Of a stretch of DNA of 64,000 nucleotides, positions 53,625-56,867 are shown piece after piece. Both the position numbers and the translations under genes were made by a program. The notes under the pieces were generated by a model. It was not told the origin of the DNA, made no database searches, and saw nothing but the letters and a program-made list of their open reading frames with translations. The stretch is taken from NCBI GenBank assembly GCA_004195615.1, contig PSPW01000002.1:122045-186044 (forward strand), written 5' to 3'. Numbering within the stretch: the stretch's first letter is position 1; every line of letters starts with the position of its first letter. The DNA comes from Methanobacteriota archaeon (lineage in GTDB: Archaea; Thermoplasmatota; Poseidoniia; Poseidoniales; Thalassarchaeaceae).

Positions 53625-54296
53625 TTATTTTGCGCTGGCAATCATTTCCATCAGAGAGACTCGCATTGGAACCAATGGGTGCCATCCATCTCCCCTTATT
53701 TTGATCAAAACCTCGTGGAGATTACTCAAGTCGGGTTTTTCTGCAATTTCAGAATGAATCCCCCTTACTGGACTAGGGACTTCGGATAATGATTCAACGG
53801 TGTGAGAATGATTGATTGCATTATTGTAGCGTTCCCAGAGTACTCTGATTTCGTCTGCGACATCCTCCATCTCCCATGATCTTCTGCCGCACATTCTATA
53901 ATTTCCGTCGGGTATGTTTTCTTTCTCATTCAGACAAATAGTAGATATTGCGTCAACTACATCCCTAACGTTGATCCAGAATCTAATATTGGATTCTTGA
54001 GCTGGTTGCTTTCCACTCATTATCTGCTCAATCCAATCAATCATTATTCCATTACCCCATTTTCTACCACCATTTGGGATTATGACATCAGACAGTTCGA
54101 TTACGATTCCTGAGTTTGAGAATCTTGAACCATGAGGGATGATTGCGATGTCACAGTTCTCTTGGCCATCAATCTGAATCGTTACGTCTGCTTTTTCTAC
54201 CTGGTCTACAATTGATGCTCCAGCTCGTTGAAGCCTTTCCTCCAGAGCTTCTCTGAGACCGTCTAAAGGTCCTGAAACATGCACACTTTTGAGCAT
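53625..54296 (-). CDS. Degenerate/short NAD-dependent epimerase-like (extended SDR-like) protein
   Basis: SGPLDGLREALEERLQRAGASIVD..., SGIVIELSDVIIPNGG, INVRDVVDAISTICLNE resemble epimerase C-terminal segments; Rossmann GxxGxxG and YxxxK not evident. Confidence 0.5.
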   Translation of the reverse strand: MLKSVHVSGPLDGLREALEERLQRAGASIVDQVEKADVTIQIDGQENCDIAIIPHGSRFSNSGIVIELSDVIIPNGGRKWGNGIMIDWIEQIMSGKQPAQESNIRFWINVRDVVDAISTICLNEKENIPDGNYRMCGRRSWEMEDVADEIRVLWERYNNAINHSHTVESLSEVPSPVRGIHSEIAEKPDLSNLHEVLIKIRGDGWHPLVPMRVSLMEMIASAK

Positions 54297-54310: not shown

Positions 54311-55846
54311 TTAGTTGGCCTCGATAGTCTTCGAGGTGAAAGTTAGGAATGCTTCCCTGAGAATTCCCAGTATCATATCTATTTCCTCGGTAGTAATTGC
54401 AAAGTGAGGTGTGAATCTCAGAGCATTCTGTCCCCCGTGGATGACACCAAGACCGTTATTCCTACACCATTCCTCAACGCATCCAAAACCCACTACTGGA
54501 AGTTTCTCGGGATTTAATTCGGCACTGAGAAGGAGCCCAGTACCTATAACCTCAGTAATCGTGTCAGGAATCTCATCGGCGAGATCTCTCAATTTAGAGA
54601 CGAATTCCACACCCCTGTCCTTGATATTCTGTCTCAATTCGGGAGTAACTCGATCAAGAACTGCAACTGCAGTTTCCAAGGCTCTTGGATTTGTTGTCAT
54701 AGTATTACCATATATGCCCACAACATATAGTTCGGCAGCTCTCTCGGAGAGACCTACTACTGAAAGAGGGTATTGACCGGCGTTTAGAGCCTTTGACCAA
54801 GTCTCCATATCTGGAACCAAACAGTCCTCAAATCCATCATAGTCAACGATACTCAAGCATCCTTGCCCCCTTAGGCCGGCTTGGATTGAGTCCACGATTA
54901 GCATGCTTCCGTGCTGGGAGCAAAGAGATCTGGCCAAGTCATAGAACCCCCTAGTTACACAAAGTCCAGGATTTCCTTCTCCCATCACTGGTTCCATTGC
55001 CATCAATTCGATGAAGAATCCTTCTCTCTCTGCACGGTCGAAGGCAGCGCTAAGTGATTCTAGATCATTGTTAGGGACGAAGATAACATTATCTCTTTCT
55101 CGGAATGATGCCAGATTCTCCTCGTACTTGTCACTGCATGAGTCTGAAATCTGAGCTGGCCTGTGTGTTCTTCCGTGAAATGCATCTACTAGGGCTAGCA
55201 TCTTAGTTGGTTTCCCCTCATGTTTTCCGCCCTTTCCAGTAATTTTAAGAGTATTAGCATCAGCAATACGAATCGAGATTGTTACCGATTCTGAGCCACT
55301 ATTCAAACAGACAAATCTGAAGAATGGGCAACTCCCTCTCTTATGTCCTACTTCTTTCCTGAGACGGTCCGAGAATCTCTTCTGACTGAAAGAAGGCGTC
55401 ATGACATTTGCCATAACCCAGTTCTGCTGCATTGACAGAATGACATCATCCGGGCCATGACCCATTCCAAGCATCCCATATCCTCCGTTATCATGCAGAA
55501 CTGCTCCATGAGAGGTAATAATCCAGGGTCCTCGAGCAGCGATTGCAACGTACGGATTTACTGTAGCGGCAGAGTAGAAATTGACATAATCTGTTTGTAG
55601 ATGAGCCCCTAAATCACTCTCTTTCATAGAAAATAATTCATCCCCCATGTCATTGATGAGGCTCTGGAAATTTCCTGAAGCCTCCTCTATGGCTCGGCTC
55701 AGAGATGGATCGGTCTCAAGGAAATCGGAGATTATCGAGTCATTGAGCCCGTTAGTCTGAGCTTGACCAGTTCTTGAGCGAATATCAGTTAGAGTAGCGA
55801 GGTGGTCGACCATTAAACAATGGAGTCGGGGGGCACACATCAACAT
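54311..55846 (-). CDS. Class III PLP-dependent aminotransferase
   Basis: FVCLNSGSESVTISIRIA, VDAFHGRTHRPAQ, LIVDSIQAGLRGQGCL, ETWSKALNAGQYPLSVV (PLP Lys). Confidence 0.87.
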   Translation of the reverse strand: MLMCAPRLHCLMVDHLATLTDIRSRTGQAQTNGLNDSIISDFLETDPSLSRAIEEASGNFQSLINDMGDELFSMKESDLGAHLQTDYVNFYSAATVNPYVAIAARGPWIITSHGAVLHDNGGYGMLGMGHGPDDVILSMQQNWVMANVMTPSFSQKRFSDRLRKEVGHKRGSCPFFRFVCLNSGSESVTISIRIADANTLKITGKGGKHEGKPTKMLALVDAFHGRTHRPAQISDSCSDKYEENLASFRERDNVIFVPNNDLESLSAAFDRAEREGFFIELMAMEPVMGEGNPGLCVTRGFYDLARSLCSQHGSMLIVDSIQAGLRGQGCLSIVDYDGFEDCLVPDMETWSKALNAGQYPLSVVGLSERAAELYVVGIYGNTMTTNPRALETAVAVLDRVTPELRQNIKDRGVEFVSKLRDLADEIPDTITEVIGTGLLLSAELNPEKLPVVGFGCVEEWCRNNGLGVIHGGQNALRFTPHFAITTEEIDMILGILREAFLTFTSKTIEAN

Positions 55847-55944
55847 TCTCCGGGAATGATTTGTAGAATGTTCAAGATAGTATCGGATAGTGAAAACGTG
55901 GATTTCTGATAATCATTAATAAAATTAAACTAAAATCAATTTTC

Positions 55945-55990
55945 CAATTGAATAATTCACTATTACTAAAAAATTTCAATTGAATTATCA
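55945..55990. repeat. AT-rich direct/inverted repeat pair in intergenic region
   Basis: CAATTGAATAATTC (55945-55958) and CAATTGAATTATCA (55977-55990); ATAATTCA and TGAATTAT are also inverted complements. Confidence 0.7.
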
Positions 55991-56019
55991 GTCTTGATTA
56001 ACGAAGAATATAAGTGCCA

Positions 56020-56070
56020 CTCCAGTGTCTGGAGCTCAGGAGAAGCATGGGGGATGCACTCCTCCCTGAG
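56020..56070 (+). promoter_or_regulatory. Putative structured leader: CTCCAG-TGT-CTGGAG hairpin followed by CTCAGG...GCAT-GGGGG-ATGC...CCTGAG stem-loop
   Basis: Read directly from sequence: 56020-56025/56029-56034; 56035-56040/56065-56070 with inner 56045-56048/56054-56057. Confidence 0.5.
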
Positions 56071-56078
56071 GGAGAAAA

Positions 56079-56666
56079 ATGGTAGATGACTACGAAATAC
56101 AGGAAATGATACATAGAGATGTTTACGTTGGAGAAAAGCACGTAGGAGTGGTGGTTGGTGAGAGATTCCACCCCCGAGACGAATTCGTGAAGTCGCTGAG
56201 GATCAAGGTGGAGGATGAAGTAGCTAGTGAATTCATGAGAAAACCAGCAGATCTTGCTCCCTTGGCAAAAGAACTAGTTCACAGCATTAGACCCGATGGT
56301 GGAATCAAACTTTCGAAGTCTATGAGGGAATTGCAACGAAGGTGGAGGAACACTGTACGAATCCAAGAAGATCTCTATGCACCGGATGAGTTGCTGGACA
56401 GGGCGGTACTGGATAATGATGGCATGGACATAGGCAATGTTGTAGAACTCATCAAAATCAAGCGCACGTACAAGGGTCTTCTAGTGAAACCCCATTTCAT
56501 GGTCAGAGCCAGACATAGTCTACCTGAGACAATAGTCGTCCCCTGTGGGCAACTGGCCAAGACAACTTCCAGGCTTGATGAAGTCATTCTGAAGTGCACC
56601 TTCTCCAGATTAGTAACCCTTCCCAGTTTCTTGAAATTAAATGACGAAAGTTTCGAAGAAGAGTGA
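56079..56666 (+). CDS. Probable tandem PRC-barrel-like protein
   Basis: Two related beta-rich halves: IHRDVYVGEKHVGVVVGERF... and LLDRAVLDNDGMDIGNVVELIKIKRTYKGLLVKPHF... Confidence 0.55.
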   Translation: MVDDYEIQEMIHRDVYVGEKHVGVVVGERFHPRDEFVKSLRIKVEDEVASEFMRKPADLAPLAKELVHSIRPDGGIKLSKSMRELQRRWRNTVRIQEDLYAPDELLDRAVLDNDGMDIGNVVELIKIKRTYKGLLVKPHFMVRARHSLPETIVVPCGQLAKTTSRLDEVILKCTFSRLVTLPSFLKLNDESFEEE

Positions 56667-56719: not shown

Positions 56720-56794
56720 GGGCGCGTAGCTTAGTTTGGCTGGAGCACCCGGCTGATAACCGGGAGGTCACAGGTTCAAATCCTGTCGTGCCCA
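56720..56794 (+). tRNA. tRNA-Ile (GAU)
   Basis: GGGCGCG...CGTGCCC acceptor, anticodon arm CCGG-CTGATAA-CCGG, T-arm CAGGTTCAAATCCTG, encoded CCA at 56795-56797. Confidence 0.95.
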
Positions 56795-56867
56795 CCAATA
56801 TTCATGATTCTCTGAATTTTGAATCGATAAGAAGCATCATGAAGGGGTCGCCTTTCCCTGTCTTCAA

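Follow-up and report, generated by a model that had tools for sequence, protein, structure and literature searches.

Results

The strongest feature of the region described here, and also the least expected, is the 32-bp register of two CAATTG boxes upstream of a PRC-barrel gene, kept over two families of Poseidoniales. The region is a real conserved regulatory region, ordinary in kind (a promoter plus a possible leader RNA) and new in its particulars. Its significance comes from the comparison with relatives only, and the window sequence by itself offers no grounds for calling the leader structured.

Locus and relatives compared

The window (the whole 64,000-nucleotide stretch of DNA that was analysed) belongs to a Poseidoniales (Marine Group II) archaeon of the family Thalassarchaeaceae, with an assembly of 1.63 Mb. 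Upstream regions were compared across 125 Thalassarchaeaceae from about eleven genera and 16 archaea of a second, sister family. Genus labels, with g1 for the window's own genus, were given to named loci by similarity. The intergenic region lies between a minus-strand aminotransferase gene, which starts at 55846, and a 195-codon gene, which starts at 56079. With a GC of 0.32, versus about 0.46 around it, this region is markedly AT-rich. Every element named in the initial annotation of this DNA was found where that annotation had placed it. The features used below are as follows.

54311–55846, minus strand: class-III aminotransferase gene, divergent, with a common intergenic region (Pfam Aminotran_3; position shared by nearly all of the family)
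55906–55913, unstranded: CTGATAAT, inverted partner of ATTATCAG, on the divergent aminotransferase side (both in 26/26 genus sequences)
55945–55950, unstranded: distal CAATTG box, a palindrome and proposed regulator site (in most genera, 32 bp away from the other box)
55977–55982, unstranded: proximal CAATTG box (followed by the TATA box 32 bp further on)
55984–55991, plus strand: ATTATCAG, then TCTT; part of a conserved upstream element in several genera (relatives' alignments)
56009–56014, plus strand: TATA box TATAAG (aaTATAAGTGCC); most family members keep TATAAGTGC
56039–56062, plus strand: likely small leader hairpin (genus-swap test; compensatory changes)
56070–56075, plus strand: Shine-Dalgarno-like GGGAGA before the start codon (sequence)
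56079–56666, plus strand: gene for a 195-aa two-domain PRC-barrel protein (orthologues in 56/60 relatives)
56720–56797, plus strand: tRNA-Ile (GAT), directly 3' of the PRC gene (ARAGORN)

The true start of the aminotransferase may lie slightly downstream of 55846. After this gene, at 53625–54296 on the minus strand, comes a gene for a 223-aa protein that has no Pfam match and is far less conserved than its neighbours. On the other side of the locus, the tRNA-Ile(GAT) adjoins the 3' side of the PRC gene in relatives too, and either co-transcription with the PRC mRNA or processing of the mRNA 3' end is possible. The tRNA is followed by a PRPP synthetase gene and then by L7Ae, which starts 1.77 kb downstream.

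A sequence search brought up 283 stretches encoding the PRC protein, of which 80 were retrieved. Orthologues of the PRC gene occur in both Poseidoniales families. A third family, which forms a neighbouring group within the class, lacks the gene in all 10 genomes examined; among the genomes searched, the protein is confined to Poseidoniales. The initial annotation called the gene PRC-barrel-like, a description borne out by a weak match to Pfam PRC (E = 0.016 for the window protein, which is below the curated cut-off; E = 2.8e-4 for the best relative) and by an AlphaFold model built from 30 sequences (pLDDT 73). The best structural matches of the model are to PRC-barrel domains of CdpB1 and CdpB2 (8qzo, 8onw), proteins of archaeal cell division, and of RimM (2f1l, 3h9n), with a best E of 8e-6. 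Given these matches, the assignment of the predicted structure to the PRC-barrel fold (CdpB/RimM-like) is sound. The likeness is one of fold alone, however, with sequence identities of 13–20 per cent and whole-chain TM-scores of about 0.3, in a protein that differs from CdpB and RimM in being limited, among the genomes searched, to Poseidoniales. Two database entries deserve mention. The PRC gene of one single-contig genome (G037:C1:1973637-1974201) appears as two overlapping frames, probably through a frameshift in the assembly. The archaeal PRC gene is also found, at 92% identity, on a contig (L070) submitted under the name 'Acidiferrobacter sp. isolate IN47', whose MAG label is probably wrong or mixed.

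A two-box promoter array

The box repeats TTCCAATTGAATAAT and TTTCAATTGAATTAT lie 32 bp apart in the window. The initial annotation had listed them as AT-rich repeat elements; they are present as two CAATTG boxes, and the spacing kept in relatives identifies them as promoter elements. Searching relatives for boxes as YAATTR, we found a box-to-box distance of exactly 32 bp in 25/26 sequences of g1, 10/10 of g9, 8/8 of g18, 14/14 of g3, 9/9 of g7, 9/10 of g2 and g5 taken together, and 10/14 of g4. Genera g8 and g6 and the greater part of g10 do not keep the 32-bp pair. The distance is 32 or 33 bp in fourteen of the sixteen sister-family sequences. Across relatives the DNA between the boxes is variable. 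From the proximal box to the TATA box the distance is about 32 bp in most genera (range 30–37) and 32 bp in 14/16 sister-family sequences; values of 34–37 bp occur in g3, g5, and g7, whose TATA motif is less certain.

The array is also present where the divergent neighbour is something other than the aminotransferase, and thus it belongs to the PRC gene. When 26 whole genomes were searched for the box pair, all of the non-coding matches that were listed and inspected stood at the PRC gene promoter. Near matches to CAATTGAATTATCAG elsewhere in the window's own genome fall within long reading frames, except for one at a contig end. We propose that the two boxes are sites of one dimeric regulator and face the same side of the helix as the TATA box. 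Archaeal upstream activator sites are a class of sites located upstream of BRE/TATA. The CAATTG boxes resemble them in that they are palindromes, precede the TATA box and share one face of the helix, and differ from them in that two sites are held in strict 32-bp register over two families.

Other repeats share this stretch of DNA. The inverted pair CTGATAAT/ATTATCAG (55906–55991) is nearly centred on the distal CAATTG box, is kept in 26/26 genus members, and may serve the divergent aminotransferase promoter. In the sister family (L032–L050), one to several copies of TTATRCGACA alternate with CAATTG boxes about 60–190 bases upstream of the PRC gene. A related sequence, ATTATACGCCA, stands beside CAATTG in g7, a genus of the window's own family.

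The leader and its probable hairpin

The TATA-like gaatataag of the initial annotation is present, with TATAAG at 56009–56014. Using the usual archaeal spacing between TATA box and start site, we place the mRNA 5' end near 56039, at or just before the outer stem (P1) of a small putative hairpin. P1 pairs 56039–56042 with 56059–56062 (GGAG/CUCC), the inner stem (P2) pairs 56045–56048 with 56054–56057 (GCAU/AUGC), and the loop is GGGGG (56049–56053). A GGGR core in this loop is nearly invariant across relatives. It lies 36–44 bp after the TATA box in all genera and 24–42 from the start codon, so the TATA distance is the tighter of the two. The Shine-Dalgarno-like reading of GGGAGA draws on the 16S rRNA of a genus member, which ends in GGATCACCTCC.

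Judged from the window sequence on its own, the 'structured leader' of the initial annotation has no support: the fold of the leader RNA is no more stable than that of shuffles (z = -0.81), and no Rfam family matches it (best E = 0.19, far below the cut-off). Leader identity within the genus is 0.67, which is not unusual and is below that of the neighbouring non-coding DNA.

The comparison between genera gives a different result. In a genus-swap test, the arms flanking GGGR were exchanged between genera, and own and swapped pairing were compared. Own arms pair better than swapped ones (P = 0.0003, or P = 0.0015 with a stricter hairpin energy). This raw test is partly compositional, as a control pairing the TATA-to-start spacer with the 3' arm gave P = 0.003, which became P = 0.11 after correction. 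After the same composition correction the hairpin arms remain significant (10 groups, z = -3.3, P = 0.0008), and none of three controls is significant in that direction. By an energy measure, the gain of the hairpin over shuffled arms is strong in g9, g18, g4, and g2/g5 and absent in g8 and g6.

P1 also changes as whole pairs in a hand-trimmed alignment of 30 sequences (GAG/CUC, GGG/CCC, AUC/GAU, and CCG/CGG), with G-U pairs tolerated. In this alignment there are 25 double-change cells in the outer pairs, compared with 5.3 in shuffles, and pairing is 90.6 per cent, compared with 26–52 per cent when the arms are slid; these counts are an illustration and not a test, because trimming by hand to the stem ends flatters them. 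The helices are short. MAFFT puts the stems of the trimmed hairpins in the wrong place. The sister family has a different hairpin of 4–6 bp at the corresponding place (mean z = -2.26, versus +0.26 for a control stretch), followed by GGAGATGGGAAA before the start codon. This sequence is found at the PRC gene in 3/5 sister-family genomes, with single matches elsewhere. On these comparisons the leader hairpin at 56039–56062 has moderate support and is likely real.

The box spacings are kept far more strictly than the leader, as would be expected if the promoter array alone were functional. The CAATTG boxes and TATA box would then do all the work, the leader would be a short 5' UTR containing a Shine-Dalgarno site and some G-rich sequence, and the hairpin signal would come from chance and composition. 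The poor folding of single leaders and the weaker result of swapping the outer arms only (P = 0.008) point the same way. Against this reading stand the composition-corrected test with its non-significant controls, the independent hairpin of the sister family, and the nearly invariant GGGR core, and we regard it as unlikely, if still a serious rival.

The inverted repeat could also act as DNA. Archaeal repressors commonly sit just downstream of the TATA box, and this is where the repeat lies, as it would if it were an operator and not an RNA hairpin. An operator would keep its sequence, however, whereas here the arms differ between genera with pairing kept and tolerate G-U pairs, which makes the operator very improbable.

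Other roles for the leader were considered and found no support. In several genera the 3' arm can pair with the Shine-Dalgarno site, but swapped or shuffled arms pair with it at least as well, and a switch between them is not supported. Mimicry of rRNA was dropped as well, the leader having only 9-base matches, at chance level. A regulon sharing the leader motif was likewise rejected, since the other matches in the window's own genome fall in coding sequence or long reading frames: exact matches to the inner stem and loop all lie inside long reading frames, and the one further exact copy of GGGGRTGCACTC is apparently coding (by eye).

Upstream reading frame and larger stems

The initial annotation described two stems and a short upstream frame, and read them as an attenuator with leader peptide or a cis-regulatory RNA. 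A cis-regulatory arrangement is supported by the box array and the small hairpin; the uORF and attenuator part fails. The letters themselves are CTCCAG-TGT-CTGGAG at 56020–56034, then CTCAGG (56035–56040), GCAT (56045–56048), GGGGG (56049–56053), ATGC (56054–56057), and CCTGAG (56065–56070). The ATG at 56047 opens 12 codons reading MGDALLPEGEKW, and its stop (56083–56085) overlaps the start of the gene at 56079.

As a leader peptide this frame did not survive comparison: among 124 anchored leaders, GCATGG occurs in the window and the distant L181 only. Control through a translated short frame that runs into the start codon might instead use the RTG found at the position of 56054 in most of these leaders. 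Relative to the gene, that RTG can stand in any of the three frames, and several relatives lack it (they have GGGAAGC or GGGATAC). The peptides read from it are unrelated and vary from 2 codons up to in-frame extensions. In the sister family, the ATG within GAGATGGG is also without a fixed frame. Since the 124 leaders have neither a short frame nor a peptide in common, we rejected a leader-peptide or uORF attenuator and consider such control extremely unlikely.

The first stem (56020–56034) is present, but only the window and its nearest relative, L062, have it intact. It follows the TATA box and precedes the expected transcription start, and thus is probably upstream of the transcribed region. 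Of the two structures for which covariation over homologous upstream regions had been suggested as a check, only the small hairpin has arms that co-vary; the zone of the first stem has no arm co-variation between genera (P = 0.21), and this stem was rejected as a leader element. The second structure (56035–56070) stands in part. Its smaller hairpin is kept with arm co-variation, while the outer CTCAGG/CCTGAG stem is found in roughly half of the genus (by eye) and is not kept beyond it.

Discussion

Our favoured reading, which we hold tentatively, combines cooperative regulator sites with a 5'-terminal leader hairpin for translational control. A dimeric regulator would bind the two palindromic CAATTG sites, which lie on one DNA face, about three helical turns apart and as far again from the TATA box, and would probably help to recruit TBP/TFB, that is, act as an activator. 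Transcription would start about 25–28 bp after the TATA box, near 56039, and the mRNA would open with the small hairpin of P1, P2, and the G-rich loop. A protein, most simply the PRC gene product or else another RNA binder, might recognize the hairpin and its GGGR loop. The bound hairpin would hinder ribosome loading at the adjacent Shine-Dalgarno site, and the result may be translational feedback, the direction of which we infer.

That the PRC product is the binder is a guess, its only basis being that the motif is specific to the PRC gene. The nearest folds of this protein include cell-division proteins, which counts against its binding the hairpin. A leader that senses nothing is another possibility: a hairpin at the expected 5' end could be a constitutive element for mRNA stability or enhanced translation, shielding the 5' end and keeping the start region open. 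Pairing between the 5' arm and the first codons is indeed weaker within a genus than across genera, which fits such an element. A generic stabilizer needs no near-invariant GGGR loop, however, and we think this explanation improbable.

Protein-mediated translational control by a short structured 5' leader is known from the archaeal L7Ae autoregulatory k-turn leader (PMC5539422, PMC6298567), which hinders ribosome loading when bound and has been studied with a GFP reporter in E. coli (PMC5539422). The leader described here is similar in that it is short, heads an archaeal housekeeping mRNA, adjoins the Shine-Dalgarno site, and is proposed to act through a protein; in both, little structure is expected without the protein. 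It differs in its G-rich loop and in preceding a gene for a PRC-barrel protein, and binding is here only a proposal. Inspected by eye for the k-turn signature (a 3-nt bulge followed by tandem G-A pairs), the internal loops of relatives lack paired GA/AG steps. A leader of the L7Ae type was rejected on this ground and on position, as the leader precedes the PRC gene and l7ae starts 1.77 kb downstream, behind the tRNA and PRPP synthetase genes.

To our knowledge, archaea have so far yielded few examples of cis-regulatory leaders or of gene-specific promoter arrays. Poseidoniales are uncultured and rank with the most common archaea in surface ocean waters; in the literature we searched, neither a cis-regulatory leader nor a gene-specific promoter array was found for them. 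The fullest version of our reading is a cis-regulatory RNA specific to Poseidoniales, in which the PRC-barrel protein binds the GGGR hairpin of its own mRNA and an order-specific factor occupies the 32-bp array. We think this version quite unlikely; if true, it would put two layers of control on one gene and would make PRC-barrel proteins RNA-binding autoregulators. A promoter register kept in two families, together with a hairpin that may form in the leader, offers defined sites for tests on a gene whose PRC-barrel class is tied to ribosome maturation or cell division, and the promoter array points to a new transcription factor.
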